This document shows positions 1,618 through 20,995 of a stretch of DNA of 40,240 nucleotides, in pieces; the stretch's first letter is position 1; every line of letters starts with the position of its first letter. The stretch lies in NCBI GenBank assembly GCA_903847405.1, contig CAINDP010000023.1, forward strand, positions 1-40,240, in the 5' to 3' direction. Both the position numbers and the translations under genes were made by a program. Origin of the DNA: an uncultured Myxococcales bacterium. Lineage in GTDB: Bacteria; Myxococcota_A; UBA9042; DTJE01. The notes beneath the pieces are model-generated. The model saw only the letters and a program-made list of their open reading frames with translations, searched no databases and was not told the origin of the DNA.

Positions 1618-1860
1618 ATGGGAAGGGCCAAAGTTGCCATCACGCTGGACGCGCAGTCCCTTGAGGAACTGGACCGGTTGGTGGTGGCTCACGTGTTTCC
1701 GAATCGAAGCCAGGCGATCCAGGAGGCGGTTGACGAGAAACTGACTCGACTGTCCCGCTCTCGCCTGGCTCGCGAATGCGCCAAGCTTGATCCTGACTTC
1801 GAGAAGGCGCTTGCCGAGGAAGGTATCAGCAAGGAGTTGGCGGAATGGCCCGAATACTGA
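1618..1860 (+). CDS. MazE/CopG-like ribbon-helix-helix antitoxin
   Basis: This 80-residue protein has the layout of a ribbon-helix-helix antitoxin. Residues 1-45 give the beta strand ([17 protein letters not shown]) and two helices ending in the [13 protein letters not shown] stretch, typical of CopG/MazE-type DNA-binding domains. Residues 50-80 form an acidic tail that would wrap and neutralise the toxin. GGAGG at 1607-1611 precedes the ATG by six bases. The gene overlaps the toxin gene by 16 bases, so the two are translationally coupled. The antitoxin dimer probably represses the promoter through the inverted repeat just upstream. The family call rests on pattern and on the unmistakable partner. 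Confidence 0.85.
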
Positions 1861-2183
1861 GAGGCGAGATCCGATGGGCGGATCTCGATCCGACTCGGGG
1901 GCGTGAGCAGGCCGGGTTGCGCCCGGTGCTCATCCTGAGTGCTGACGTCTTCAACGAGCGTTCCGGAACCGTCATCGCGATGGCGCTCACCAGTCAGCCT
2001 CAACGCGCCGCCTTCCCTCTCACGCTGGAACTGACCGATACGCGTCTTCCCAAGCCTTCCTGGGTCAAGATCAGCCAAATCCGAACCCTTTCCGTGGACC
2101 GTATCGGCAAGAAACTCGGCGCAGTCTCCCCGGAGGAAATCACCAAGGTGATCGACGGTCTGAACGAGATTCTCGGAAACTGA
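1845..2183 (+). CDS. MazF/PemK-family endoribonuclease toxin
   Basis: This 112-residue protein is a MazF/PemK-type mRNA interferase, which cleaves cellular RNA at short sequences when not bound by its antitoxin. Family landmarks are the N-terminal [18 protein letters not shown] strand-loop with the conserved RPVLIL following, the mid-protein VIAMALTSQ, and [21 protein letters not shown] with the S/T-Q-I-R-x-L core of the fold. The length is normal (about 110-120). It starts inside the end of the antitoxin gene in another frame, giving a classic antitoxin-then-toxin order. The cleavage motif cannot be told from sequence. The frame is intact, so the toxin is probably functional. Confidence 0.92.
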
Positions 2184-2305: not shown

Positions 2306-3499
2306 TCAGTTCGGGGTGTCGATCTTCAGGATCTTGAAGCCGCCCAGGCCGGCGGCCACGAACGCCTTGTTGCCTTCGTAGGTCACGTCGTTGCTGGATT
2401 CCAGCGCGCCCATTTCCATGTGGCCCAGGATGTCCACGGTGGTGGGGGACTGGCTGACTCCCTTGTTCAGGTGTGCGAGGTACATGCCCGCCTCGCCCTG
2501 GGCCAGGAACAGCGTGCGGTTCTGGGCCACGGCACTGTTGCTGACGGTCAGCGGCGGGTCCAGGTCCGGGACCACCGGCGGGTCGATGGTGAAGGCCACG
2601 GCGCCGGTGATCAGGCTCGCCAGTTGCACGCCCCCGTCGTTGACCGCCACCAGGGCGTTGTCGCCATCGACCTGCACGGTGGACTTGGACTCGGGGATCG
2701 TGGCGCCCTCCAGGGGGAAGGTGGCCGTCACGACGCCCCCGTCCACCACCGCCAGCGACGCCGGCGTCCCCGACAGCACCACGAACTTCCCGGCCTTCCA
2801 GTCGTCCACGCTGCGGGCGTCGTGCAGGGGCACGTAGGCCGTGCGCGTCAGGTTCCGATCCAGGATCGAAAGGCCGCCCGTGTCGCCGTGGGTTACCGCG
2901 ACAGTGCCGGCCTCGAGGCACCGGATGGAGTTCGCGGCGTGGCTTTCCAGCGGGACCTCCCGGAAGTCCTTGTTGAACTTGCACAGGGGGTTCACGGTGA
3001 TCAGGCCCACCGTGGCCGACTCCCGCTCCGCGCTGGCCATGGCCAGGAACATCTGGTCCCCGCAGACGTCCAGCGCGTTGACGTCGTGCCCGGGGAAGAG
3101 GGCCTCGGCGACCAGTTCCGGGGTGTCGCCCAGGAACTTGATGACCTGCACGGCGCCCTGCTGCACTTCGCCCCGGACGTTGTAGCTGACGTATGCGTAC
3201 TGGCCCCGGATGACCACCCCGGTCGCCTGCAGGACCTGTCCTTCGATTTCCGGCGGGTACACCTCGGCCAGCAACTGGATCTGTTCGGCCACCGCGGGCG
3301 TGTTCGCAGCCAGTTGAAGCCCGCTGGTGTGTACGCCCAGGGTCCGGGTCGGATCCACGGTCACCGGCACGTTCCGGATCTCGATCCGGGACGTCAGTTT
3401 GGCCGCGTCGTTCTGCACGATCACGTCCTGCACGGACGGGTCGCATGCCACCATCGCCAGGGCCGTCGCCATCGCCATCGCCACGATCGTCCGCTTCAC
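2306..3499 (-). CDS. LVIVD/beta-propeller lipoprotein
   Basis: The 397-residue product begins with a lipoprotein signal (MKRTIVAMAMATALAMVAC, lipid-carrying Cys19). Asp follows at position +2, which in enterobacteria favours inner-membrane retention. The mature part contains repeated strand patterns typical of LVIVD-repeat beta-propellers, such as ATGVVIRGQYAYVSYN near residue 90 and the C-terminal SNDVTYEGNKAFVAAGLGGF. The GTG at 3499 is chosen because AGGAGG lies seven bases upstream and the signal peptide follows at once; a much longer open frame continues upstream but is only the complement of neighbouring coding sequence. GTG overlaps the TGA of the HEAT-repeat gene (3496-3498), so the two are coupled. 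Its role is unknown; the context suggests an envelope scaffold or sensor serving the polysaccharide locus. Confidence 0.85.
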   Translation of the reverse strand: MKRTIVAMAMATALAMVACDPSVQDVIVQNDAAKLTSRIEIRNVPVTVDPTRTLGVHTSGLQLAANTPAVAEQIQLLAEVYPPEIEGQVLQATGVVIRGQYAYVSYNVRGEVQQGAVQVIKFLGDTPELVAEALFPGHDVNALDVCGDQMFLAMASAERESATVGLITVNPLCKFNKDFREVPLESHAANSIRCLEAGTVAVTHGDTGGLSILDRNLTRTAYVPLHDARSVDDWKAGKFVVLSGTPASLAVVDGGVVTATFPLEGATIPESKSTVQVDGDNALVAVNDGGVQLASLITGAVAFTIDPPVVPDLDPPLTVSNSAVAQNRTLFLAQGEAGMYLAHLNKGVSQSPTTVDILGHMEMGALESSNDVTYEGNKAFVAAGLGGFKILKIDTPN

Positions 3500-6400
3500 C
3501 GCCACTCCTCCTGTCCGGCCAGGGCCGGACCGATATGCGCCGTCACCGCGTTCCGCACCGATTCCACCGGGTCCTGGGACAGGCGTCGCAAGGCTGCGCG
3601 GCACTCGGCCGACGCATCCGCCGGGACCAGGGCCGCCGCCCGCGCCCGCACCTCGGGTGCGGGGTCCCGGAACGCGTTCACCAGGGTCGACTCGGGGCAT
3701 CGTCCCAGCACGGCCAGGGCCTCCAGGGCGGCCGCCCGTGCCGGCGCCTCCCGGGCCTCCGCAGCGCGCTGGACCAGGGCCGCCCGCGCCGCGTGGCTGT
3801 CGGGCGTTTCGACCAGGCGCGCCCGCACCGCCCGGGGCTGCGCCTCGACGCGCGCCCGGAAGGTGGCCAGCCGCGATACATCGGCCGCACTGGCGAATCC
3901 CAACAGGGCCTCCACGCGAACTTCGTCGTCCGGGTCCGTGGCCAGTCGATCCAGCAGGTTCATCGCGGCCCCGTCCGACCGGGTCGCCATCGCCCGGGCC
4001 AGGGCCTTGCGCACCCAGGGGGAGGGATCCTGGGAGGCTGCCTGCAGGGCGCCGTCCGCCGCCAGGGCGCCCAGGGCGCCCAGGCTTTCCACCGCGGCCC
4101 GCCGCACGTCCTCGACCGGGTCCGACAGGGATCGTGCCAGAGCCCCTGCCGACTCGGCGGTCGCCACGTGGCCCAGGGCCTGGGCGGCCGCCGCCCGCAG
4201 GACGGGGTTCCGGTCCGACAGCCAGGCCATCAGCAGGCCGGCCGATGCCGGGTCCCGCAGGCGCCCCACCACCTGCAGCCCGCACCGCAGCACCGTTTCG
4301 TCCGGGAAGCCCATCAGGTCGTCCAGGAACGCGGCCACGTTGCCCGCGTTCAGGCGGGCCAGCGTGTCCACCAGGGTTTCGCGCAGGGCGGTGTCGTCGA
4401 TGTGGAAGGCGCGCAGCAGTTCGACGTTGCCCACCGGCGCGCCGGCCTTCGCCAGGCCCCGGGCCGCCTGGACCTGCACCGCGACCACCGGGTCCCGCAG
4501 GGCCCGGGTGAACAGTCGGGCCAGGCCGTCGTCGGGCGGCAGTTCGACCAGGACCTCCAGGGCCCGGGCGCGGACCTCGGCCGCCGGGTCCGTCGTCACC
4601 GCGTCGATCAGCAGATCCCGTGCAGCAGGCGTCTGGAGGCTGCGCAGGGACGCGACGGCCGCGGCCCGGGCCTCGGGGGCGCCGTGGGATCGCAGGATCG
4701 CCGCGCAGTGGGCTGCGACCTCGTCGGCGGTCAGGAACAGGCCCATGCCGTCGCTGTTGCCCGGATCCAGGACCTGCAGGAACTGCTTGCGCACTTCCGG
4801 GGCCTCGCCGTCCAGCAGCGTTTGCAGCCGCGCCTGGCGCCCCGGATCCGACAGGGCGCCGACCGCCAGGGAAAAGGCCCGGGGACCGCCGCACAGGCCC
4901 AGTCCCACCAGCACGAAATCCTGGAAATCCGGCGCGTCGTCCCGGGCGCGGGCCCGGTCCAGGGCCGCCTCGGCGTCCGGGCTTCCGATGCGGCCCAGCG
5001 CGATGGCCACGCGGTTGCGGACGAAGGGGTCCGGGTCCGCCAGCACGCCCTCCAGCAGGCTGACCGCGGCCTCCCGGCCCACGCGCCCCAGGGCGTTCAC
5101 GGCTGCCGCACGCACCCGGGCGTTCCGGTCGTCCAGCAGGGACACCAGGACCTCGCGGGACATCGTGTGATCCAGTTTTCCCAGGGCCCCGGCCGCCGAG
5201 GCGCGCACCTCGAAATGGGGGGAACGGGCCAGGGCGCACAGTTCGGGCAGGACGGCCGGGTCGCCGGTCTTGCCCAGCAGCCAGGCCTGGGCGACCAGCG
5301 CGTCCTTGCCGGCCGCCATCCCCTGCAACCAGCGCGCGACGGCGGTTTCCTGGCCGGCCAGTTCGTCGGTCAGCACCTCGCGCACCGCGCGATCGGGGCT
5401 GTCCAGGTGGGGCAGCAGCGCCTCGACCGCCTGGGGAGTGCCGATGCGACCCAGGGCCACGATCGCGGCCACGCGGATGCGGCCATCGGGATCACCCAGG
5501 TGCTCGCAGACCCGCGGCAGCCAGGCCTCGTCGGCCCGCAGCCCCGCCGCCTTCACCGCCCGCAGGCGGACGTCGGCATGGGGATCGGACAGCGCCCGGT
5601 CCAGCAAGTCCTGGGTCGCGGCGTGCGCCAGGTGCGCCACGGCCTCGACGACGCCCGCCCGGACCTCCACGTTGGGGCTGTCGAACAGCCGGGCCACGGC
5701 CTCCACGACCTCGTCCTCCCGGCCGACCCCGAATTCCTTCAGGGCTTGCACGGCGGCTGCCCGGACCGCTTCCTCGGGGTCCGACAGGGCCGGCAGCACC
5801 CGCGCCGGCCCGTCTGGAGGACGCAGCCGCGCCAGGGCCTCCAGCGCCCGCACGCGCACGGGCCACTCGGAATCCCCCAGCCGGGCGGCCAGGGCCGGCA
5901 CCACCGCGAGGTTGTCCAGGGAACCCAGCAGTTCCGCCATGCGGGACCGGATCCGGAGGTCGTCGTGTTCCAGGTAGGCCATCAGGGACTGCAGCAGCCC
6001 GGCCCGGCCCACGTCCAGCAGCAGGCGCGTGGCCCGGTCCCGGCGGATCCGATCGGGGGAGGCCAGGTCCTCGACCCGCGCCGCCAGCACGCCCACCCGG
6101 TCCAGCGCGACGGCGGCCCGGTTGCGCACCTCGGGGGACGGGTCGTGCAGCAGGGCTTCCAGCCGGGACGTGTCCTGGGGGCGGATCAGTTCGATCGCGC
6201 CGATGACGCGCATGCGGGTCCAGTAGTCGGGGTCCGCCAGCAGCGCGAACAGGCTGTCCAGCGCCGCCGGATCCCCCAGGCGTCCCAGGGCGCGGGCGGC
6301 CTCGGCCCGGACCGGCGCCACCGGGTCGTGCAGCGCCACGTACATCAGTTCGTCGACGCTGGACCGCAGCGCCAGGTTTCCCAGGGCTTCGGCGGCCGAC

Positions 6401-7149
6401 ATGCGGACGGCCTCGGACCGATCCCGCAGGCGTTGCAGCAGCGGCGCCTCGGCCGCAACGGCCCGGATGCGCCCCAGGGTCTGGGCGGCCCAGGCGCGCA
6501 CGTTCGTGTTGGCCTCGTCCCCCAGCGCCGTCACCAGGGCCGGCACCGCCGCGTCGCCGAAGGACACCAGCAGGTCCGCGATGCGCGGGGACGCCCAGTT
6601 GTCGCGGCTGCGCAGTTCGGCCAGCAGCAGCGGGATCCCTTCCTGCGAGCGCATCAGCCCCAGGGCCTGGGCCGCGGCCAGTTTCACGGTCTGGGCGTCC
6701 TCGTCCGGGTCGCGCATCGCCGCCACCAGGGCCGGAATGGCCTCCAGCACCTGCAGGTCGCCCAGGGCGTGGGCCGCCGAGGTGCGCACCGCCCGGCTGG
6801 TGGCCTCCCGCAGGTCCTTCAGGTAGCGATCGATGATGCCCAGGGACCGGTAGACCTGCAGCAGGCGTGCGCGCTCCTCCCCGCTGGCCGGCAGCACGCG
6901 GTTCAGGGCGGCCTCGACCGCCGGCAGGTCCTGGACCTCGCCCAGTTGGAACAGCATGCGGTCCAGGGACTGGAAGCGCTCCTGCTGGTGCTGCTGCAGG
7001 ATGCCGTCGATGTGGCCCACGCGGCGGGACAGGCGTTGCATCAGGACGACCGTCACCAGGCGCCGGACGCCCAGGTAGGCCAGCAGCAGGACCACCATCC
7101 CCGCGAAGGCGACGGCGATGGACAGTGCGATTTCAGCCAGTTGCGACAA
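3496..7149 (-). CDS. giant membrane-anchored HEAT-repeat protein
   Basis: The 1217-residue product has one hydrophobic N-terminal segment (about residues 7-28). A polar helical stretch rich in Gln follows (around residues 45-100). The rest, to the C-terminus, is built from roughly 31-residue helical repeats of the PBS-lyase/HEAT type. Their recurring signature is a Val-Arg-x-x-Ala-Ala-x-Ala-Leu-Gly helix preceded by a Leu-x-Asp-Pro/Ser turn, about three dozen copies. Such superhelices bind other proteins and are not enzymes. Translation starts at TTG 7149, preceded by GGAGGGG (7160-7166) that straddles the stop of the receiver gene. The gap is seven bases, so the genes are co-transcribed. I infer a scaffold on the cytoplasmic membrane that links the receiver protein to the glycosyltransferase. 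Exact repeat number was not computed. Confidence 0.88.
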   Translation of the reverse strand: MSQLAEIALSIAVAFAGMVVLLLAYLGVRRLVTVVLMQRLSRRVGHIDGILQQHQQERFQSLDRMLFQLGEVQDLPAVEAALNRVLPASGEERARLLQVYRSLGIIDRYLKDLREATSRAVRTSAAHALGDLQVLEAIPALVAAMRDPDEDAQTVKLAAAQALGLMRSQEGIPLLLAELRSRDNWASPRIADLLVSFGDAAVPALVTALGDEANTNVRAWAAQTLGRIRAVAAEAPLLQRLRDRSEAVRMSAAEALGNLALRSSVDELMYVALHDPVAPVRAEAARALGRLGDPAALDSLFALLADPDYWTRMRVIGAIELIRPQDTSRLEALLHDPSPEVRNRAAVALDRVGVLAARVEDLASPDRIRRDRATRLLLDVGRAGLLQSLMAYLEHDDLRIRSRMAELLGSLDNLAVVPALAARLGDSEWPVRVRALEALARLRPPDGPARVLPALSDPEEAVRAAAVQALKEFGVGREDEVVEAVARLFDSPNVEVRAGVVEAVAHLAHAATQDLLDRALSDPHADVRLRAVKAAGLRADEAWLPRVCEHLGDPDGRIRVAAIVALGRIGTPQAVEALLPHLDSPDRAVREVLTDELAGQETAVARWLQGMAAGKDALVAQAWLLGKTGDPAVLPELCALARSPHFEVRASAAGALGKLDHTMSREVLVSLLDDRNARVRAAAVNALGRVGREAAVSLLEGVLADPDPFVRNRVAIALGRIGSPDAEAALDRARARDDAPDFQDFVLVGLGLCGGPRAFSLAVGALSDPGRQARLQTLLDGEAPEVRKQFLQVLDPGNSDGMGLFLTADEVAAHCAAILRSHGAPEARAAAVASLRSLQTPAARDLLIDAVTTDPAAEVRARALEVLVELPPDDGLARLFTRALRDPVVAVQVQAARGLAKAGAPVGNVELLRAFHIDDTALRETLVDTLARLNAGNVAAFLDDLMGFPDETVLRCGLQVVGRLRDPASAGLLMAWLSDRNPVLRAAAAQALGHVATAESAGALARSLSDPVEDVRRAAVESLGALGALAADGALQAASQDPSPWVRKALARAMATRSDGAAMNLLDRLATDPDDEVRVEALLGFASAADVSRLATFRARVEAQPRAVRARLVETPDSHAARAALVQRAAEAREAPARAAALEALAVLGRCPESTLVNAFRDPAPEVRARAAALVPADASAECRAALRRLSQDPVESVRNAVTAHIGPALAGQEEWR

Positions 7150-7156
7150 GTCGGGG

Positions 7157-7522
7157 TCACCCCTCCAGCAAGGCGCGCACGGACTCCACGACCCGGGCGG
7201 GATCCACGGGCTTGGCCAGGTACACGTCCGCCCCCACCTCGGAGCCCCAGAAGCGGTCCGCTTCGCTGTCCTTGGCGGTCAGCAGGACCAGGCGCACGGC
7301 GGACAGGTCGGGATCGGACCGGATGCGGCGGCAGACCTGGAACCCGTTCAGTTCGGGCATCATCACGTCGGACACCAGCACGTCGGGGCGATGGCGGCGC
7401 ACGGCCTCCAGGGCCTCGGCGCCGTTGCGTGCCGTGAACACCTCGAAGCCCGCCGCCCGGAAACGTCCGGACAGGATGGCCACGATGTCTGGCTCGTCGT
7501 CTGCGATGACGATCCTTGGCAT
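7157..7522 (-). CDS. single-domain CheY-like response regulator
   Basis: The 121-residue protein is a stand-alone receiver domain. It keeps the acidic pair in IVIADDEPD (residues 8-9 in this numbering), the phospho-acceptor Asp in DVLVSDVMMPELNG (Asp52), the switch Thr (LLTAKD, Thr82) and the essential Lys (LAKP, Lys104). There is no output domain, so phosphorylation must act through protein contact, most plausibly with the co-encoded HEAT protein. The ATG at 7522 is preferred over an in-frame GTG at 7528, because GAGGGG (7528-7533) would overlap that GTG but sits five bases from the ATG. The ribosome site overlaps the stop codon of the kinase gene, showing tight coupling. Confidence 0.93.
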   Translation of the reverse strand: MPRIVIADDEPDIVAILSGRFRAAGFEVFTARNGAEALEAVRRHRPDVLVSDVMMPELNGFQVCRRIRSDPDLSAVRLVLLTAKDSEADRFWGSEVGADVYLAKPVDPARVVESVRALLEG

Positions 7523-7531
7523 CCGCACCCC

Positions 7532-8938
7532 TCAGTCGGCTCCCTTTTCCAGCCTCGCCACCACGCGGTCCAGCGCGCTTCCCGGCGGCGCGGCCACCAG
7601 CCACGGCGTCCCCTCGGGCGGCGCCGCGTCCAGCAGGTCCTCCAGGCACTCGGCCCGGCGCACGATCACGCTGCCGCCGCCCTGGGCGACTTCCATCAGC
7701 ACCTGGCCTGCCAGGACGGGATCGTCCACGACCGTGATCTTCAGGCTCCCCCGGCGGCCCCGGGGGTCCACCGGCAGGTCCAGCCGGAAGGACGCGCCGC
7801 CTCCCTGCGTTTCCTGGACCGCGATGCGGCCGCCATGCTCGCCGGCCACCTCGCGGCATACGACCAGCCCCAGCCCCGAGTGCTTCCGCCCGTCCTCGCC
7901 GGGGTTCGACACGCCCGGCAGGAAGATTCGCTGGCGATCCTCGACGGGCACGCCCGGGCCTGTGTCCTCGACCACCAGGCGCACGCCGGGCCGTCCGTCG
8001 GGGAAGGTCCCCGCGGGCGCGGCCTCGGACAGGACCCGCACGCGTCCCAGGCGGGGCGTGTGGCGCAGCGCATTGTCCAGCAGGGCCAGCAGCACCTGCA
8101 GCAGGCGCAGCCGGTCGCCCCAGATCACCGGGCACCCCGGGTCCTCCTGGGTTTCCAGCGACACGTTGCGTTCCTGGAAGGCGCGTTCCAGCAGGTCGGC
8201 GGCCTCGGTCGCCAGGGCGCCCGGGCGCAGCCGCGTCCGCTGCCGGGTCCGGGCGTCGGCCAGCGCCCCGGGTGCGGGCGGTCGATCCCGGTCCGACTCC
8301 TCGCGGGTCTTCGCCAGCACGCCGGCCAGGACCTCCGAGGCCACGCGCATGCGTTCCAGGCTGCGGCGCTGCGCGTCGTCCAGGGGTCCGTCGATCCCGT
8401 CCAGCAGGTTCGAGGTGTACCCCGCCAGGATCGTGCCCGACGTCCCGACCTCGTGGACCAGTTCCCGCAGGCGCTGGTGGAACCGCCGGCTGCGGGCCTG
8501 TTCGGTTCGCAAGCGGCCCTGCAGGTCCCGGGCCTCGGCGTCGGCCTGCCGGGCCCGCCCCGCGCGTCCCGCCACCGCGGTCAGAACGGCGGCCAGGTCC
8601 GCCTCGCCGATCATCGTGGGCAGCAGCGCATCGGCGCCGGTCGTCAGGCGGGCCACGGTCGCCACGCACCCGGGCCCCGGATCCCCCAGGATGACGATGG
8701 GCACGTCCCGGGCGACCTCCCGGACCAGGGCCATCAGGGCGGTCAGATCCCCGGTCGCGGTTTCGTCGATCACCGCGACGTTCGCGGTCCCTTCCAGCAG
8801 GGCGGCCAGGAACGCGGCCTGATCGCCCTGCCGGCGCCAGGACAGGCGCTGCCGGTCCGGGGCGATCCCCGGGACCGTCCGCGGTTTCCCGGGGCCATCC
8901 AGCAACACCACGGTCAGGGAAGGGGCTTCCGGATTCAT
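7532..8938 (-). CDS. histidine kinase with degenerate receiver-like N-terminus
   Basis: The 468-residue soluble kinase has a receiver-like fold in residues 8-120. It keeps an Asp at the end of strand 3 (Asp58 in VAVIDE) but lacks the acidic pair and the conserved Lys, so it is probably a pseudo-receiver. A short coiled linker leads to a HisKA-like helix with phospho-acceptor His162 (VHEVGTSGTIL). The ATPase domain follows with the N box (LLDNALRHTP, Asn289), G1 box (VEDTGPGVP) and GLGL (355-358). About 65 extra residues after the ATPase resemble another degenerate alpha/beta domain. No membrane segment is present, so the signal is cytoplasmic. The receiver gene follows after nine bases, making it the obvious partner. 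ATG 8938 is taken as the start; the ribosome site is weak. Confidence 0.87.
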   Translation of the reverse strand: MNPEAPSLTVVLLDGPGKPRTVPGIAPDRQRLSWRRQGDQAAFLAALLEGTANVAVIDETATGDLTALMALVREVARDVPIVILGDPGPGCVATVARLTTGADALLPTMIGEADLAAVLTAVAGRAGRARQADAEARDLQGRLRTEQARSRRFHQRLRELVHEVGTSGTILAGYTSNLLDGIDGPLDDAQRRSLERMRVASEVLAGVLAKTREESDRDRPPAPGALADARTRQRTRLRPGALATEAADLLERAFQERNVSLETQEDPGCPVIWGDRLRLLQVLLALLDNALRHTPRLGRVRVLSEAAPAGTFPDGRPGVRLVVEDTGPGVPVEDRQRIFLPGVSNPGEDGRKHSGLGLVVCREVAGEHGGRIAVQETQGGGASFRLDLPVDPRGRRGSLKITVVDDPVLAGQVLMEVAQGGGSVIVRRAECLEDLLDAAPPEGTPWLVAAPPGSALDRVVARLEKGAD

Positions 8939-8965
8939 CGTGCGTCCGTTCGTCCGCGCGCACGG

Positions 8966-8994
8966 ATGATAGGTCGCCCCCAGCCGGGTCGCCA
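8966..8994 (-). promoter_or_regulatory. possible internal promoter for the kinase-receiver-HEAT-lipoprotein genes
   Basis: On the minus strand TATCAT (8971-8966) is a strong -10 match with a poor -35 (TGGCGA, 8994-8989) at 17 bases. It lies in the 110-base gap between the glycosyltransferase and kinase genes and would start RNA about 20 bases before the kinase ATG. It could let the regulatory genes be expressed apart from the glycosyltransferase. Confidence 0.4.
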
Positions 8995-9048
8995 GTTTTC
9001 GGCGTCCGCGGCAGGGTGGAAGCGGCCCTCGGGGAACCGGGGGATCGC

Positions 9049-10611
9049 TCAACCCGCCTTCGGACCCGTCCCGGCTCCCTGGAAGCCCTTGCGGCTGAAC
9101 TTGTCCCAGGACTTGCGACCCTTCAGCCAGTCCCGGAGTCCCTTCAATTGCCACCACAGCAGGTACTGGCGGTAGCCCAGGTTGGACAGGAGGCCCGCGA
9201 AGACCAGCACCAGGATGGTCTTGGGGCCCCGGTAGTCGAACAGGGCCCGATCGGTCAGCCGGTTCGGCAGGCGCACCCGGGCGATGGCCGACAGCACGCT
9301 GCCAGCGGACAGCAGCAGGTTGAAGCCGATCGCGAACAGCAGGAAGGAGGCCATCGCCGACCAGTCCAGCAGCCCCGCGGCGGCCGACAACGGCACCACC
9401 AGGTAGCCCAGCGTTTCGATGACGGGCGCCAGGGCCTCGAACAGCAACTGGTAGGGCAGCGAGAACATGCCGATGCGGCCGTACCGCCGGTTGAACATCA
9501 TCTTCCGGTGGAACCACAGGACCTCCAGCAGGCCCCGGTACCAGCGGCTGCGCTGCTTGCCCAGGCTGACGTATTCCTCGGGGGCCTCGGTCCAGGACGT
9601 GGGTTGGGGCAGGAAGACCACGCGCCCCACGATGTGGTTGTCCATCAGGAAGCGGTGCAGGCGGACCACCACCTCCATGTCCTCGCAGACGGTGTCGACG
9701 CCGGCGCCCACGTACTCCCGGCTGACGCGGCTGCGGATGTGCTTCGTCAGGAAGCCGCCCGCGGCCACCAGGGTTTCGCGCTGGATCAGGGCGAACACCC
9801 CCGACAGCACCAGCAGCGCGTTGAACTGTCCCAGTGCCGTGCGGCTCTGGGTGAAGGATCGCATGTACTCGACCACCTGGAACCGGGCGATCCAGGAGTG
9901 GGGCAGGTTCACCTCCAGCACCTTCCCGTCCAGCACCTTGCAGTCGTTGGACAGCGCGATCTGGCCGCCGACGGCCATCACGTGGTTGGGGTCGTCCAGG
10001 ATGGGCTGGATCGCGGCGCGCAGGGCCTCGTCCACCATCAGCGAGTCCGCGTCCATGGAGGCGACGTAGGTTCCCTGGGAGGCGTTGATTCCGGCGTTGA
10101 TGGCGTCCGCCTTGCCGCCGTTGTCCTTGTCCACCAGCACCATGCGCAGGACCGTCGGCGGGAGGTCCATCGTGGCGCGGTACAGCCCCCGGACCGTCGC
10201 GGTGCCCAGCACGGGGCTGGTGTCGATGTCCGACCGGACGAAGCCGAAGGCCTCCTTCAGCACCTCGACCGTCCGGTCCTTCGACCCGTCGTTGACGATG
10301 ACGATCTCGTAGTGCGGGTAGTTCAGGCGCAGCAACGATCGGACGCTCTGGACGATCGTCACCTCCTCGTTGTACGCCGGCACCAGCAGCGAGATGTGGG
10401 GCGCGAAGGCCTCGACGCGGTCGTTCTTGCGCACCGCCGCCTGGGCCATCTGGAGGGTCTGCCGCACGTGCAGCGCGCTGATGATCAGCAGGACCAGGTT
10501 CGTGCCGGCGTAGGCGAGGAAGTACACCACCACCAGGGTGTCCAGGACCAGCAGGATGTCCTTCACGAGGCCCATGGCGGGATTTTCGACGATATCGGCC
10601 GTCGCGGCCAT
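9049..10611 (-). CDS. processive family-2 glycosyltransferase, membrane-embedded
   Basis: The 520-residue enzyme resembles cellulose, hyaluronan and poly-GlcNAc synthases, which polymerise a sugar nucleotide on the cytoplasmic face and thread the chain through the membrane. A membrane segment lies at about 20-45. The GT-A catalytic domain follows: LLVPAYNEE, nucleotide-binding Asp108 in VNDGS, the DxD pair in SMDAD (187/189), the catalytic ED (CED, 310-311) and the acceptor-binding QRSRW at 353-357. The D,D,D,QxxRW set is that of processive enzymes. Several C-terminal membrane segments (about 385-500) and a basic tail end the protein. Product sugar cannot be told from sequence. It is divergent from the YaiO-like gene and upstream of the kinase genes. 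In E. coli yaiO also lies near a family-2 transferase (yaiP), which supports a functional link. An alternative ATG is at 10575. Confidence 0.92.
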   Translation of the reverse strand: MAATADIVENPAMGLVKDILLVLDTLVVVYFLAYAGTNLVLLIISALHVRQTLQMAQAAVRKNDRVEAFAPHISLLVPAYNEEVTIVQSVRSLLRLNYPHYEIVIVNDGSKDRTVEVLKEAFGFVRSDIDTSPVLGTATVRGLYRATMDLPPTVLRMVLVDKDNGGKADAINAGINASQGTYVASMDADSLMVDEALRAAIQPILDDPNHVMAVGGQIALSNDCKVLDGKVLEVNLPHSWIARFQVVEYMRSFTQSRTALGQFNALLVLSGVFALIQRETLVAAGGFLTKHIRSRVSREYVGAGVDTVCEDMEVVVRLHRFLMDNHIVGRVVFLPQPTSWTEAPEEYVSLGKQRSRWYRGLLEVLWFHRKMMFNRRYGRIGMFSLPYQLLFEALAPVIETLGYLVVPLSAAAGLLDWSAMASFLLFAIGFNLLLSAGSVLSAIARVRLPNRLTDRALFDYRGPKTILVLVFAGLLSNLGYRQYLLWWQLKGLRDWLKGRKSWDKFSRKGFQGAGTGPKAG

Positions 10612-10694
10612 TTTTCGGCCGATGGCCGGGAGGTGGGCGTCAGCCGGGGATTCGCGGTATTCGTTCGGGGATCGGGAGTGGGGGAGGAGCAGTC
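10612..10694. promoter_or_regulatory. divergent intergenic region, glycosyltransferase / YaiO-like gene
   Basis: These 83 bases must carry the start signals for both divergent genes. GGAGGAG at 10683-10689 serves the GTG at 10695. No convincing -35/-10 pair is visible on either strand; a GTATTC stretch near 10658 is the only AT-rich piece. Confidence 0.45.
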
Positions 10695-12029
10695 GTGGTT
10701 CCGGGGCGGACGGCAGCGGTGGCGCTGGTGGCGGGGATCCTGGTCGCCGGGATCGCCCTGGCCCCGGGGCCGGCCGCTGCCGGCGAGTGCCCCGACGCCT
10801 GGCTGCACCTGCGCACGGGCGACCCGGTGGGGGCCGAGCAGAAGGCCCGGGCGTGCCTGGATGCGGACCCGCTGTCCACCGACGCGGCCCTGGTGCTGTC
10901 CCGGGCGCTGGCTCGGCAGAACCGCTATGTCGAGGCCCTGACCTGGGCCGACCTGGTGCAGCGCCGTCACCCGGAGGACCCGGAACTGGTGATCTGGGTC
11001 GGACGCCTGCTGGCCTGGAAGGGCGACCTGGACGCCGCCTGGGCGAAGGTGAAGGATCTGCCCCCGGATCGGGACGACCCCGACGAACTGCGCTTCCTGG
11101 CCGACCTGGCCTTCTGGCGGAAGGACCACGCCCAGGCCGCCGCCCGCTACGACCGCGTGGTCCTGCGGGACGGAACCGACCGCAGGGCCCGCCTGAACCG
11201 CGGCCTGTCCCGTCGCGATGCCGGGGACGCGGCGGGGGCCTTGAAGGACTTCGCGCTCCTGTGCAAGGGCGGCGACCGGGAGTGCTGCCTGCTGGCCGAT
11301 CAGGTGCGCGTGGCCCGCTCGCGGGTCCGGGGCTGGGTGCGTTTCGACCACTGGGTCCTCCTGGACCGTCCCGACGCCTGGAGCCTGGGGACCGGGATCG
11401 ACGGCCGCCTGCCGAAATCCTGGAAGGCCGGGGTGTCCTTCGAGATCCGCCCCCGGCTCTACACCGAACGCACCTTCGGGGACCTTTTCACCGAATTCTG
11501 GGCCTCCGGGGATCCGGCCCGCTGGGCCACCGTGCGCGTGGCGGGCGGCTTTTCGGTGGAACGGCGCTACTCGCCGGTCTGGTCCCTGCTGGTCGAGCCC
11601 GTCTTCCGTCCCTGGCAGGGCGTCGAACTGGGGTTGCTGGCGTGGCGCCTGCAGTTCGATCCGTTGCCGGCGACCGTGATCGGTCCCTCGGCGCTGATGG
11701 AATGGGGGCGCTGGACCCTGCTGCTGCGCTATTACCTGGGTGTCCGGGACGACGGGGACGTGTCCCATTCCGGCTTTGCCAAGGTGGGCCTGCGGATCGG
11801 CTGGCCCTGGCAGGTGCACCTGGCGGTCGGGGCCGGCAACCGGGCGGACTACCTGGAGTTGCGGGGCAACCCGACGGCCCAGTTCCACTGGACCCTGGGC
11901 GCCGGCCTGGCCTGGCAACTGGACTGGCGCTGGCGGCTGGTGCTGGACCTCATGTACCGCGACGAGCACGAGGGCGCCGCGCGGTTCCGGCAACTGCGCA
12001 GCAGCCTGGGGGCCGAGGTTCGATTCTAG
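10695..12029 (+). CDS. YaiO-type TPR plus outer-membrane beta-barrel protein
   Basis: The 444-residue product has a cleavable signal (ending near GPAAAGE) and, from about 30 to 200, tetratricopeptide-like helical pairs (for example AQKARACLDADPLSTDAAL-type and AAARYDRVVLRDGTDRRAR-type units). From about 205 to the last residue, alternating aromatic/polar strands form a beta barrel. The chain ends in Phe, the usual C-terminal signal for outer-membrane insertion. This TPR-then-barrel order is that of YaiO-family proteins and recalls PgaA/BcsC exporters. GTG 10695 is supported by GGAGGAG five bases upstream. Probable role: guiding or exporting the polysaccharide made by the divergent glycosyltransferase. 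The substrate is unknown. It converges with the next gene, leaving only six bases. Confidence 0.82.
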   Translation: MVPGRTAAVALVAGILVAGIALAPGPAAAGECPDAWLHLRTGDPVGAEQKARACLDADPLSTDAALVLSRALARQNRYVEALTWADLVQRRHPEDPELVIWVGRLLAWKGDLDAAWAKVKDLPPDRDDPDELRFLADLAFWRKDHAQAAARYDRVVLRDGTDRRARLNRGLSRRDAGDAAGALKDFALLCKGGDRECCLLADQVRVARSRVRGWVRFDHWVLLDRPDAWSLGTGIDGRLPKSWKAGVSFEIRPRLYTERTFGDLFTEFWASGDPARWATVRVAGGFSVERRYSPVWSLLVEPVFRPWQGVELGLLAWRLQFDPLPATVIGPSALMEWGRWTLLLRYYLGVRDDGDVSHSGFAKVGLRIGWPWQVHLAVGAGNRADYLELRGNPTAQFHWTLGAGLAWQLDWRWRLVLDLMYRDEHEGAARFRQLRSSLGAEVRF

Positions 12030-12035
12030 AAGGCC

Positions 12036-13160
12036 TCAGGGCACCCACCCCGCGATCGTCGCTGCCGTCGTATCGAAGGCCAGGCACACCGACATCGCGT
12101 CGCCGCGCTTGTCCTTGGTCTTGGCCGACCAGGTACCGTCGTCTTCGGCGTGCAGGTCGAAGGGGGGCTCCTGGCCGGAAATCTTCAGGAAGGCGCAGAC
12201 GTCCGGCTTCGGTTCGGCGGCGGCGGTGCATCCCGACTGCAGGTCCCCGATGATCTGCTCCAGGGTCTGCATCGTCAGCACCCCCGAAAACACCCCGTCG
12301 TGGAGGATCGGGCTGCCGCTGTCGGAGGATTCGACGGTGGCCGTCACCTCGGCGTCCACCAGCGTCAACAGCACGGGCAGCCCGCTGATGTGCACGGGCA
12401 TCGATATCGTCCCGGGTCCGGCGTGGAATCGGGTTCCTTCGGTGGTGACCGGTCCCAGCAGGAACCACGGAATGCAGTCGCCGCCGATCGACGCCGGATC
12501 GGCCCGGACCGCGCCGGGAGCGCCGCATTCCGGGCAGGGGCGGCCGTAATACCCGGCGAGGGCAGGCTGGGCGATCGAGCCACCGGAAGCGAAATCCCGC
12601 ACCTGCAGCAGGCCGCTCCAGGTTCCGGCGCTGACGGCGTCGGCCATCGGGCCGTTGATCTGCGCCGACATGCCCTTCATCGCGCTGTCCCCCTTGCCGT
12701 CCCCCGTGAAGTCGTGGCAGGTCGCGGCCACCTTGGCCGCCTCGGCCGGCGTCGACAGGGCGGCCAGCACGGCGGCCGGCCCGCTGACGTCGGGCAGGAC
12801 GTCGCAGGCCAGGTCGATGCAGCGGTCGGTGATGCACTCGGCCCCTTCGGCGCACGTGCCGCAGGTCCCGCCGCAGCCGTCGTCGCCGCAGGCCTTCCCT
12901 TGGCACCGAGGCTGGCAGGCGTCGGCATCGACGGTTTCCACCCGGTCCTCGGGAGGAAGGTCAACCGGCGCCGGGTCCATCGCCAGGTCCCCGGGGGCGA
13001 TCCCGTCGTCCTGGGGCGTATCGGGGGGCGCCAGATCGGTCACCGCGTCCGGGACGTCCTGAACGTCCGGGACATCCGTCGCCAGGGGCCCGTCCGAGGC
13101 GGTCGAACAGGCCGCGAACATCGCGACTGCAGCCAGCGTGACCATCCCGCGGATTCCCAT
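12036..13160 (-). CDS. Asp/Pro-tethered Cys-rich lipoprotein
   Basis: The 374-residue product has a lipoprotein signal (MVTLAAVAMFAAC, lipid Cys18 with Ser at +2). An Asp/Pro/Val-rich disordered tether spans about residues 25-78. A compact cysteine module sits at about 82-119 (CQPRCQGKACGDDGCGGTC and following Cys residues), of a kind frequent in myxobacterial surface proteins. The remaining 250 residues form a globular domain of unknown family containing a Ca2+-loop-like DFTGDGKGD. Start 13160 is chosen over an upstream in-frame codon because the signal peptide begins there; a G-rich stretch lies just upstream, but the ribosome site is poor. It probably sits on the cell surface; function unknown. 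Confidence 0.75.
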   Translation of the reverse strand: MGIRGMVTLAAVAMFAACSTASDGPLATDVPDVQDVPDAVTDLAPPDTPQDDGIAPGDLAMDPAPVDLPPEDRVETVDADACQPRCQGKACGDDGCGGTCGTCAEGAECITDRCIDLACDVLPDVSGPAAVLAALSTPAEAAKVAATCHDFTGDGKGDSAMKGMSAQINGPMADAVSAGTWSGLLQVRDFASGGSIAQPALAGYYGRPCPECGAPGAVRADPASIGGDCIPWFLLGPVTTEGTRFHAGPGTISMPVHISGLPVLLTLVDAEVTATVESSDSGSPILHDGVFSGVLTMQTLEQIIGDLQSGCTAAAEPKPDVCAFLKISGQEPPFDLHAEDDGTWSAKTKDKRGDAMSVCLAFDTTAATIAGWVP

Positions 13161-13304
13161 TCCCCCCCCAACGACGTCGATGACGAACGGATTGTCGCGA
13201 ATCCGGAATCCTGAATCCACCGAGGAATCGTCGCGTTCGTGCGATTACCCCCCCGGAGGCCGTCCGGATGCCCTGCGTGCTAGACTCCGCGGCCGGAGGT
13301 GGCC

Positions 13305-14702
13305 ATGAACGTGCAGGCACGGGTTCCGGGGGTCCTGGCGACGCTGGCGATCGCGTTCGCACTGGGGTGCGGGGGCGGCGCGACGCAGGATGCCGGGGAC
13401 ACGGACACGCCGGTTCCCGCGGATGTTCTGGCGGACCTGCATGGAAGCGACGTGCAGTCGGACCTCGCCCGCGACCCTGGGCCGGTGGATCCGGGACCCG
13501 ACGCGCCCGCCGACTTCCTCGGCGACGATGTGCCCCCCGCAGACCTCCCCGCGGACCTCCTGTCCGGGGACGATGGCCCCGGGGACCCCGGCGTGAACCC
13601 CTGCCCGCGCCTGCCGGCCGCCGCGGACCGGGACCGCTTCGTCGTCACGTCCTTCCCGTACCAGGACGCGCAGGGCAAGGCGTCCGACTGGGCGCTGATC
13701 CGGCTGTCCGCCAAAGGCGTCCTGTCCGACCTCGGCCCCCGGTTCCAGATGGGGCCCGCCTTCGACGGCGACGTCGCCTTCACGCCCGACGGGCAGGTGG
13801 GGATCGCCGTGCAGGACGACGGCACCCTGGGCGTCTTCCGGATCGATCCCGTGGCGGGGTCCGCGGTCGTGGTGCACGCGGGCTTTGCGGGCGGATTTTC
13901 GGCGTCCCGGGTCCTGATGGGGCCCGAAGGCGACCACGCCCTGGTGCTGGACACCGAGTGGCGCGACGCGTCCGGCGCGACCGATCGGGGCGGCGGCGTC
14001 TACCGGGTGGACATCGGGTGCGACGGGACCCTGACGGATCGTGGCATGGTGATGCCCGCGAAGCTGCCCGCGGCCCTGCTGCGGATTCCCACCCGGCCCG
14101 ACCGGGTGGTGCTGGCGGCCCGCGACGTGCTGGGCGTGCTGACGGGCGGGGACCTGCACCTGCTTTCCTGGGGCAACCCTCCGGTGGTGCGGCACAGCGT
14201 CCAGACGCTGGGTGACGACTCCAATGTCGACGGGTTCGCCATCACGCCCGACGGGCGCTACGTCCTGCAGGGGGACACGGGAATGTTCGCGACCCACGGG
14301 GTGGCCGTGGCGGAGGTGGTCGGCGAGACGCTGGTCCCGCGCCAGTTCCTGACGCCCATCGGGAACCCGGCCGCGATCGTCGTTGCGCCGGCCGGGGGGA
14401 CCGTGCTGGTGGCCGGGGCCTACGAGCCCGATGATTTGTGGATCCTGGACCGCACGGACGCAACCCCGGAAACGCCCTTCACGATCCGGGGCCCGGTGGA
14501 CTATGTCGGAGGCGGCAGCCAGTTGCCCACGGCGATGGTGATGCTGGACCGCGGCCCCCTGGCCGGCCGGGTGCTGGTGACCGAGGTCGAGGGCATCCGG
14601 CAGGTCGATCTGAAACCGGACGGCACCGTCCAGGACCTGGGCATCTTCACGCTGGGCGGCGGCACGACCGGCATGCCCGCGGCCCTGGGCGTCCAGCCCT
14701 GA
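13305..14702 (+). CDS. beta-propeller-like lipoprotein with Asp-rich tether
   Basis: The 465-residue product carries a lipoprotein signal (LATLAIAFALGC, Cys22 followed by Gly) and a 75-residue Asp/Pro/Ala-rich tether with no predicted fold. About 360 residues follow with regular strand repeats such as DVAFTPDGQVGIAVQDDGTL and GFAITPDGRYVLQGD, like seven-bladed YVTN/WD-type propellers. ATG 13305 is taken because GGAGG (13295-13299) lies five bases upstream; a GTG at 13299 would overlap that site. It is divergent from the Cys-rich lipoprotein gene, with 144 bases between. A TAGACT -10-like box is at 13281-13286, without a clear -35. Function is unknown; propellers on this tether usually present a ligand-binding face outside the cell. 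Confidence 0.8.
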   Translation: MNVQARVPGVLATLAIAFALGCGGGATQDAGDTDTPVPADVLADLHGSDVQSDLARDPGPVDPGPDAPADFLGDDVPPADLPADLLSGDDGPGDPGVNPCPRLPAAADRDRFVVTSFPYQDAQGKASDWALIRLSAKGVLSDLGPRFQMGPAFDGDVAFTPDGQVGIAVQDDGTLGVFRIDPVAGSAVVVHAGFAGGFSASRVLMGPEGDHALVLDTEWRDASGATDRGGGVYRVDIGCDGTLTDRGMVMPAKLPAALLRIPTRPDRVVLAARDVLGVLTGGDLHLLSWGNPPVVRHSVQTLGDDSNVDGFAITPDGRYVLQGDTGMFATHGVAVAEVVGETLVPRQFLTPIGNPAAIVVAPAGGTVLVAGAYEPDDLWILDRTDATPETPFTIRGPVDYVGGGSQLPTAMVMLDRGPLAGRVLVTEVEGIRQVDLKPDGTVQDLGIFTLGGGTTGMPAALGVQP

Positions 14703-18931: not shown

Positions 18932-20995
18932 TCAGGAAGACCTGGAATCCAGGACCAGCCGCACCTTCGTTGCCAGGATGCGCAGCGAGAAGGGTTTCTG
19001 CAGGAACGAGATGCCGTCGTCCAGGACGCCGTGGTGGCCGATCACGTTGCTGGTGTAACCCGACATGAACAGGACCTTCAGGCCGGCGAACTCGCGGTGC
19101 AGCACCTCAAACAGTTCCATGCCGTTCATCCCGGGCATGACCACGTCCGTCAACAACAGGTCGACGTGCCCCGCGTGGGCACGTGCCAGGTCGATGGAGT
19201 TCCGGGGCTCTGCCGTCGCCAGCACGCGGTAGCCCAGGTTTTCCAGGCTGGCGCGGGTCAACTCGCGGACCGCCTCGTTGTCCTCGACCACCAGGATCGT
19301 TTCGGTGCCCCGGGGAAAGGCTTCCAGTTCGGGCGTTTCCAGGGCGGCCGCGGCGTCCCCGCCCGCCATCCGGGGCAGGTAGACGTGGAACACGCTCCCG
19401 TGGCCCTTTTCGGAGTAGGCCGCCACCGACCCACCGTGCTGCTTGACGATGCCGTAGACCGTCGACAGTCCCAGCCCGGTGCCCTTCCCGGGTTCCTTCG
19501 TCGTGAAGAAGGGTTCGAACAGGTGCGCCATGGTGTCGGCATCCATCCCGACGCCGGTGTCGCTGACCGAAAGCCGCACGTAGGGACCCGGCAGGACCTC
19601 GGGATGCTGGCGGGTATAGTGGGCGTCCAGATCGACGTTCGCCACCTGGATTCCCAGGTCGCCGCCCACCGGCATCGCGTCCTGGGCATTGACCGCCAGG
19701 TTCAGCAGCACCTGCTCGATCTGGCCGGCGTCGGCCCGGACGACCCCGACGTCCGGTGCGAGGTCCAGCCGGATGGCGATGTCCTCCCGCAGCGTCCGCC
19801 GCAGGATCGCCTCGAACCGCTGGATGACGGTGCCCAGGTCCAGGATCCGCAGTTCGATGATCTGCTTGCGCCCGAAGGCCAGCAGGCGCTGGGTCAGGTC
19901 GCGCCCGCGCTCGGCGGCCTGTCGGATGTACTGCAGCGCGCCGTGCTGGGGCGACGATTCGGGAATGTCGGCGGCCAGCAGTTCGGTGAACCCGAGGATC
20001 GGCGTCAGCAGGTTGTTGAAGTCGTGCGCCACGCCCCCGGCCAGCAGCCCGATGGACTCCATCTTGCGGACCTGAAGGATGGTTTCCTCCAGCCGCCGCC
20101 GCTCGCTGATGTCCACCAGGAAGCCTTCGAACTGCTGCGGACGGCCGGCCTCGTCCCGGGCCAGGCGCGCGCTGATGGCGACCCACGTCAGCCGACCGTC
20201 CCGGCACCGCAGGGGCACCTCGCGGCCCTGGACCTCCCCGTGCCGCAGCAGGGTCGCCACGATGTCGTCGCGATCCTCCGGTCGCGCGTACAGTTTCACC
20301 ACGGAATCCGAAACGTCCTCGCGCAATTGCTCGATCGAGTCGTATCCCAGGATGTGGACCATGGCCGGGTTGCCGTCGAGGATCCGCCCCTCCAACGAAC
20401 TCAGGAACAGGCCCTCGACGGCGTTTTCAAAGATTCTCCGGTACTTCTGCTCGCTGCGGCGCAGGTCCGCGTTGGCATCCTCGACCCGTCTGCGGGCCAG
20501 CCCCATCTCGCCGATCAACTGCACCTGGCGGGAAAGGAACGCCATGATGTGCCGGACATTTTCCTGGGTGAAGATCGGGACCTTGCGCAGCGCCTCCCGG
20601 TAGGCGGCCGGATCGAAGCCGAACTCCCGCGCCTGGCCTTCGAAAAAGGCCGGGTCCGGGGGTTCGAAGAAGAACTGCCCCATGAAGAAGTTGGCGACGT
20701 GGGTGCCGCCGATGGCGATCGGCACGGCGACGTCCACCAGGCCGTTGCCGCACCGGTACACGTTGAACGCCTCGCCCTTTCGCAGGTTGCCTGCCAGGAC
20801 GGTGTCGCTGTGCAGGCAGCGCGCCGTGGTCACGGGGTGGACCCGGTGGAAGCGGGTGCAGATGTCCTGCCACCCGGTGGCGATCAGGATGGTGCCGTCC
20901 AGGTCCAGGATGGCGGTCGGCACACCCGTCAGGGCGGTAAAACTTTCAAACGATTTGCGGAGTTCCGCCACGTCGACGAGTTCGGCGAACGTCAT
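18932..20995 (-). CDS. PocR-PAS hybrid sensor histidine kinase with receiver
   Basis: The 687-residue cytoplasmic protein has, in order: a PocR-type ligand-binding domain (about 5-165, with Cys46, Cys60 and Cys82 in the family's usual places); a PAS domain (about 183-297); a HisKA helix with His324 in GVAHDFNN; an ATPase domain (Asn436 in LLNLAVNAQDA, DTGVGM at 479, GTGLGLS near 505); and a C-terminal receiver (acidic residues in VVEDNE, phospho-Asp617, Lys667). PocR domains are thought to sense small organic molecules. The attached receiver makes it a hybrid kinase, or a self-contained module feeding an unlinked partner. GAGG precedes the ATG by seven bases, and a strong promoter lies upstream. 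The acyltransferase gene follows. Confidence 0.92.
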   Translation of the reverse strand: MTFAELVDVAELRKSFESFTALTGVPTAILDLDGTILIATGWQDICTRFHRVHPVTTARCLHSDTVLAGNLRKGEAFNVYRCGNGLVDVAVPIAIGGTHVANFFMGQFFFEPPDPAFFEGQAREFGFDPAAYREALRKVPIFTQENVRHIMAFLSRQVQLIGEMGLARRRVEDANADLRRSEQKYRRIFENAVEGLFLSSLEGRILDGNPAMVHILGYDSIEQLREDVSDSVVKLYARPEDRDDIVATLLRHGEVQGREVPLRCRDGRLTWVAISARLARDEAGRPQQFEGFLVDISERRRLEETILQVRKMESIGLLAGGVAHDFNNLLTPILGFTELLAADIPESSPQHGALQYIRQAAERGRDLTQRLLAFGRKQIIELRILDLGTVIQRFEAILRRTLREDIAIRLDLAPDVGVVRADAGQIEQVLLNLAVNAQDAMPVGGDLGIQVANVDLDAHYTRQHPEVLPGPYVRLSVSDTGVGMDADTMAHLFEPFFTTKEPGKGTGLGLSTVYGIVKQHGGSVAAYSEKGHGSVFHVYLPRMAGGDAAAALETPELEAFPRGTETILVVEDNEAVRELTRASLENLGYRVLATAEPRNSIDLARAHAGHVDLLLTDVVMPGMNGMELFEVLHREFAGLKVLFMSGYTSNVIGHHGVLDDGISFLQKPFSLRILATKVRLVLDSRSS

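Follow-up and report, generated by a model that had tools for sequence, protein, structure and literature searches.

How might a stand-alone receiver, that is, a response regulator without an output domain, act when it is encoded beside a putative polymer synthase? This question is raised by a six-gene locus in contig CAINDP010000023.1 (C23) of an uncultured Myxococcales bacterium, whose genome comprises 5.65 Mb in 273 contigs; the whole stretch of 40,240 nucleotides that was analyzed is referred to here as the window. We consider it probable that the locus encodes a synthase-dependent machine for a polysaccharide (or an amino-sugar polymer), the activity of which is set post-translationally by a two-component receiver acting through a HEAT-repeat protein. 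According to open reading frame (ORF) calls and family scans, five genes lie on the minus strand and a gene for a TPR/YaiO-like barrel protein lies divergently on the plus strand (lengths in amino acids, aa):

9049-10611, minus strand: processive family-2 glycosyltransferase (GT2), the predicted polymer synthase; 520 aa, with N-terminal and C-terminal membrane helices
7532-8938, minus strand: soluble histidine kinase; 468 aa, HATPase_c, with an HExxT phospho-acceptor motif
7157-7528, minus strand: stand-alone receiver with no output domain; 123 aa, Response_reg
3496-7149, minus strand: HEAT-repeat protein; 1217 aa, one N-terminal membrane helix, repeats predicted to be cytoplasmic
2306-3499, minus strand: lipoprotein, last gene of the operon; no family match
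10695-12029, plus strand: TPR and beta-barrel (YaiO-like) outer-membrane protein; TPR_16, divergent from GT2

These ORF calls and the Pfam matches confirm the six genes of a preliminary description of the locus, including a GT2 with D,D,D,QxxRW, a soluble kinase, an output-less receiver and a 1217-residue HEAT protein. The same description had placed the last four genes within overlaps or gaps of nine bases or less, and the measured spacings agree: 3 or 9 bp between kinase and receiver, 7 bp between receiver and HEAT gene (counted from a TTG start), and an overlap of 4 bp between the HEAT and lipoprotein genes. GT2 and kinase genes are separated by 110 bp, and the divergent GT2 and barrel genes by 83 bp.

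The GT2 protein matches Glycos_transf_2 (PF00535, 3.8e-25) and PF13641 (3.9e-18) and contains hydrophobic segments that correspond to membrane helices. The residues D, DxD, ED and QRxRW are invariant across 79 aligned GT2s of its subfamily, the window included, so that the protein fits a processive synthase as judged from these motifs (D, DxD, ED, QxxRW) together with the helices. None of these 79 GT2s (79 of the 115 surveyed below) carries a PilZ domain, and no PilZ, GGDEF or EAL domain was found in the six locus proteins by Pfam scan, no genome-wide search having been made; both results uphold what had been stated earlier for these domains. In 17 loci the GT2 bears a C-terminal extension of ~360 aa (e.g., L045:9094-11586) that has no Pfam match where scanned, and a homologue of this extension is free-standing beside GT2 in L064, L066 and L067 (L067:6535-7689). 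Neighboring genes in relatives hint at the sugar chemistry. In Halosolutus, GT2 is followed by genes for a sugar-phosphate nucleotidyltransferase and GlmS, and upstream genes encode a polysaccharide deacetylase in the close relative L041 and a nucleotide-sugar dehydrogenase in Legionella; the polymer of these relatives may thus contain amino sugars or uronic acids.

A very unlikely alternative is that the GT2 transfers single sugars to lipid or protein and makes no polymer, with barrel and HEAT proteins serving envelope modification. It would fit the NCBIfam results, in which the best scores fall far under every curated cut-off (PgaC/IcaA model TIGR03937, 101.1 of 422.3 bits needed; second best, the XrtG-associated glycosyltransferase TIGR03111, 91.7 bits with a cut-off of 364), and the finding of no deacetylase or hydrolase among the window proteins scanned. 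It agrees less well with the invariant processive-synthase residues and the membrane helices, with the deacetylase gene of L041, and with the divergent TPR/barrel gene, since TPR/barrel proteins are the exporter type of synthase systems. A family of ~420-aa secreted proteins or lipoproteins (c3, alignment A1) was also observed beside GT2 in 24 of 41 loci (e.g., L060:7886-9199); its members share an invariant E-H and other motifs, with no Pfam match in the three members scanned and no credible PDB relative, and are perhaps polymer-processing enzymes. The c3 family, a candidate periplasmic partner that is common in relatives, is not present in the window's genome and was rejected as a partner for the window locus.

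Is the gene set conserved beyond the window? Members of the GT2 subfamily, defined as matches to P0002 at E <= 1e-40, were found in 34 of 188 genomes of the window's phylum, 46 of 199 of Acidobacteriota (the phylum of G194, Thermoanaerobaculia), 12 of 398 of Pseudomonadota and three of 201 of Chloroflexota; the last two we take to be the phyla of G395 (uncultured Micavibrio) and G394 (Anaerolineae), respectively. We surveyed 115 loci, comprising 34 from the window's phylum (of 36 places, G180 on a 3.6-kb contig and the partial gene of G088 being out), 45 from Acidobacteriota (of 47; G194 is represented by L037, and G232 is not included), all 12 from Pseudomonadota, all three from Chloroflexota, seven of 10 from GTDB contigs (the distant GT2s L038-L040 were left out) and 14 of 34 from plasmids. 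The plasmid loci were hand-picked among the best-scoring rows and are non-random, with L153 (GT2 153 bits, no HEAT annotated) left out. Near-duplicate loci remain in the set, on three Mesorhizobium plasmids and in some Acidobacteriota rows. Neighbors of GT2 were counted up to a distance of 2.5 kb (HEAT, same strand), 3.3 kb (TPR/barrel), 3 kb (receiver, same strand) or 5 kb (kinase).

The co-occurrence of GT2, YaiO, CheY-like and HEAT genes, proposed earlier as a check, was recovered by this survey: a HEAT gene accompanies GT2 in 110 of 115 loci, a TPR/barrel gene in 96 and a receiver in 71. Receivers are found in eight of 34 loci of the window's phylum, 38 of 45 of Acidobacteriota, 11 of 12 of Pseudomonadota, 3 of 3 of Chloroflexota, two of seven GTDB contigs and nine of 14 plasmids. 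Their density is highest close to GT2, with 48 receivers in the upstream 1-2 kb bin (109.8 locus-equivalents) versus six in the upstream 6-9.5 kb bins (96.9 locus-equivalents) and none downstream at 3-6 kb (194 locus-equivalents). The receiver lies 5′ of the HEAT gene in all 71 receiver-bearing loci, and the window locus itself has HEAT and receiver genes within the 2.5- and 3-kb limits and in this order. As a control, 18 loci of PgaC, another processive GT2, out of 299 Pseudomonadota genomes were treated with the same thresholds; neither a HEAT gene (0/18) nor a receiver (0/18) was detected in them, which indicates that both partners are specific to the GT2 subfamily studied. The barrel profile does match the TPR/barrel gene of 17 of these 18 loci and is therefore not specific to YaiO, so 'YaiO' in the counts means TPR/barrel.

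These results support a conserved module of GT2, HEAT, TPR/barrel and receiver genes, no local accident, with a range of several bacterial phyla plus haloarchaea. Annotations at NCBI give the same picture, with response regulator - YaiO - HEAT - GT2 on a Mesorhizobium plasmid, response regulator - TPR - HEAT - GT2 within a flagellar gene cluster on an Erythrobacter plasmid, response regulator - HEAT - GT2 - kinase on a Haloarcula plasmid, and YaiO - HEAT - GT2 adjoining nucleotide-sugar enzymes on a Legionella adelaidensis plasmid. In the plasmid flagellar cluster of Erythrobacter aureus, the module (L085) has a gene for a PAS-domain kinase next to it and a PilZ gene in its vicinity. The receiver label requires 13 changes on the GT2 tree (104 rows), which suggests that the receiver was gained or lost repeatedly and that the 71 loci are not 71 independent events.

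Where would the parts of such a machine reside? The window HEAT protein matches HEAT_2 (5e-120, 16 stretches) and has a hydrophobic helix near residue 7 with a Kyte-Doolittle (KD) mean of 2.5, while the usual HEAT partner is ~360 aa long and has one N-terminal helix. A strong hydrophobic stretch is present in 104 of 110 HEAT proteins, and its C-terminal flank is the more positive in 92 of these 104 (opposite in two, tie in 10), which places the repeats in the cytoplasm, where receivers work. The HEAT protein is accordingly predicted to be an inner-membrane protein with cytoplasmic repeats.

For the barrel protein, described beforehand as a divergent TPR/beta-barrel, the TPR part is well founded (TPR_16, 1.6e-10; confident helices over residues 33-209 in a structure model), but the ~12 strands that follow are modeled with low confidence and the YaiO domain model TIGR04390 (OMP_YaiO_dom) scores just below its cut-off (31.1 versus 32 bits). 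Its relative in L060 reaches the Pfam YaiO family (35.3 bits, 23.9 needed). Eight loci come from single-membrane organisms (three haloarchaea, three Chloroflexota and two Bacillota), and among them the TPR/barrel gene is found in none, the HEAT gene in all eight and the receiver in six; outside these groups, 96 of 107 loci have the TPR/barrel gene. Because the barrel is absent where the HEAT and receiver genes are kept, HEAT, receiver and GT2 look like an inner core, and the barrel looks like the outer-membrane exit. A second same-strand TPR/barrel match occurs 5.3-6.3 kb upstream of GT2 in nine Acidobacteriota loci (L090, L100, L102, L103, L107, L108, L111, L116 and L120). The lipoprotein gene was called as previously described, whereas its propeller fold is not established: it has no Pfam or NCBIfam match and no useful PDB sequence match, and a single-sequence model reaches a mean predicted local distance difference test (pLDDT) score of 33. 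With no homologue in five other genomes (G030, G010, G039, G139 and G003), the lipoprotein was rejected as a member of the module.

Could the receiver itself carry a phosphorylation signal? The window receiver consists of a Response_reg domain (1.4e-26) with no other Pfam domain and keeps the phospho-site Asp, Thr and Lys. Scanned as stop-to-stop frames, all 71 core receivers contain Response_reg and none contains a DNA-binding domain; the phospho-Asp is kept in 65, Thr/Ser in 67 and Lys in 63. In a 111-column tree of these 71 together with 51 further receivers from their loci, eight label changes separate the two sets (mean of shuffled labels, 39), and the starred branches of this low-resolution tree force only one change, so a single origin of the core receivers is possible. 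Receiver distances correlate with GT2 distances (rho 0.33 among distant pairs; none of 300 permutations exceeded 0.19), which shows, at the level of sequence divergence, that receiver and GT2 are co-inherited.

The window kinase (HATPase_c, 3.4e-22) has no 19-residue stretch over the transmembrane threshold of 1.6, and its N-terminal ~135 aa are weakly receiver-like (hhalign against the receiver profile, probability 1.5%, E 0.034). In L079, L149, L151 and L152, a gene for an Hpt domain is convergent to GT2 and several receivers and a kinase lie upstream, a gene set that suggests a multi-step phosphorelay. It is quite unlikely that the receiver serves transcriptional control, of the operon or of other genes, as a Spo0F-like phosphorelay intermediate or a phosphate sink and is merely co-transcribed with the synthase. 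Such a role would be in line with several loci at which hybrid kinases and Hpt proteins accompany tandem sets of two or three receivers (Mesorhizobium and Devosia; L131, L132, L134 and L135) and with the Hpt domain on four of the 71 core receivers, but most receiver-bearing loci have no labeled kinase nearby and their receivers still adjoin the HEAT or barrel gene.

In control through the HEAT protein, the GT2 would polymerize a sugar chain and extrude it across the inner membrane, and the TPR/barrel protein would let the chain pass the outer membrane. The HEAT protein would adjoin the GT2, fixed to the inner membrane and exposing its repeats to the cytoplasm. The kinase may phosphorylate the bare receiver, and we infer that the phospho-receiver docks on the HEAT protein and thereby passes the signal to the GT2, changing the activity or assembly of the synthase in a direction that could be on or off. 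Alternatively, the GT2 might be the direct target of the receiver, much as EpsZ is that of EpsW, and the HEAT protein would then be a constitutive scaffold for synthase assembly outside the signaling, which we regard as unlikely. HEAT genes stand beside GT2 even without a receiver (110 versus 71 of 115 loci), so the basic partner of the HEAT protein appears to be the synthase, and the contact of EpsW with EpsZ is reported as direct in PMC12802240. Against direct action, the receiver gene is 5′ of HEAT in every receiver-bearing locus and no receiver-GT2 fusion was seen in the surveyed loci; yet the same loci contain no receiver-HEAT or HEAT-GT2 fusion either, all multi-label frames being kinase-receiver hybrids.

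Several observations weigh against receiver control through the HEAT protein. A nearby receiver is lacking in 44 of 115 loci, among them all 17 with a C-terminally extended GT2, and a kinase was found within the limit in only 19. Six of the 71 receivers miss the phospho-Asp, and two carry GGDEF, which tells against a strict form of control without c-di-GMP (cyclic di-GMP) output; the lack of DNA-binding outputs in all 71 agrees with the earlier interpretation. GT2 and barrel genes are present in the sister loci L031-L033, with no HEAT gene within 2.5 kb; in L034 a long HEAT gene lies upstream of GT2 and runs off the contig. Finally, the locus is absent from the one same-genus genome and all eight same-family genomes sampled, which makes its presence patchy.

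Within this distribution, the window is one of three genomes that form a clade with G139 and G003 in a quick GT2 tree (SH-like approximate likelihood-ratio test, SH-aLRT, 99). The order GT2 - kinase - receiver - HEAT is common to all three loci and differs from that of the remaining loci, and the clade is further marked by a kinase of its own and by a larger HEAT protein, which has 1217 aa in the window and 1214 aa in G139 and is truncated in G003, where the contig stops. An H-[ED]-[VI]-x-[TS] motif and a 'DG(I/L)DGP' stretch recur in all three kinases. Gene calls make the G139 and G003 kinases short (~230 and ~270 aa), and no sensor domain was seen in these two, without a family scan. A broader reading, on which we are almost evenly divided but lean slightly toward doubt, is that this is an ancient class of sugar-polymer synthases of bacteria and archaea, whose switch is not c-di-GMP but a phosphorylated bare receiver acting through a HEAT adaptor in the membrane, and that the window clade represents a self-contained unit with its own sensor-poor kinase and an approximately threefold larger HEAT protein.

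How does the module compare with known systems? Control by c-di-GMP is a known trait of the Pga and cellulose systems. The window locus resembles PgaABCD in combining a processive GT2 with a TPR/beta-barrel outer-membrane protein, and differs from it in the low PgaC score (101 of 422 bits) and in the HEAT and receiver genes that the 18 PgaC loci lack; the GT2 likewise stays under the cut-off of the XrtG-associated glycosyltransferase. The analogy with Escherichia coli yaiO-yaiP-yaiS drawn in the preliminary description, a GT2 near a YaiO barrel, proved weak, because YaiP is 31% identical to the window GT2 over only 118 residues and no HEAT or receiver gene is annotated at that locus.

Post-translational control of synthase-dependent pathways is frequently exerted via c-di-GMP (PMC12802240, introduction). 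According to the same paper, the single-domain regulator EpsW of Myxococcus xanthus activates the phosphoglycosyl transferase EpsZ post-translationally, and this pair is the nearest precedent, from a different pathway: the window receiver likewise stands alone, keeps its phospho-site and is encoded with a polysaccharide enzyme. EpsZ is a phosphoglycosyl transferase that initiates a Wzx/Wzy pathway, in contrast to the GT2 synthase with HEAT protein and TPR/barrel exporter of the window, and no large monotopic phosphoglycosyl transferase is among the six locus proteins. The receiver-HEAT-GT2 set also extends to other phyla and to archaea. The suggestion that the system is undescribed thus holds in part: no paper on the receiver-HEAT-GT2-YaiO set was found in searches limited to open-licence PMC papers, and the gene set, which is widespread, seems to be undescribed, but EpsW is already known as a bare receiver that controls a polysaccharide enzyme, which makes the module, with its different enzyme, HEAT partner, exporter and range, a variant of a known principle.

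If the proposed control is correct, the conserved receiver-HEAT-GT2 set would represent a second, phosphorylation-based control of synthases beside c-di-GMP across many phyla. A testable role would also be offered to YaiO-like barrels and to a HEAT protein and an orphan receiver that both recur, and the module is present in cultured hosts that are open to test (plasmids of Mesorhizobium ciceri, Erythrobacter aureus and Haloarcula halophila).

Other genes of the window were noted beside the locus. A 687-aa PocR-PAS-kinase-receiver hybrid is encoded at 18932-20995 (minus strand), and many such hybrid kinases occur in the same genus and family. A hybrid kinase of the window has its best match in the same-genus genome (45%, 7.5e-128; 35% in G139), which fits a correctly binned contig, short of proof. 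Two lipoprotein-like genes with D/P/V-rich stretches and without Pfam match lie at 12036-13220 (minus strand) and 13299-14702 (plus strand). By the 3′ end of the operon, at 1618-2183 (plus strand), a ribbon-helix-helix gene is followed by a PemK/MazF-like gene (PF02452, 1.8e-30), and the two are likely a toxin-antitoxin pair.

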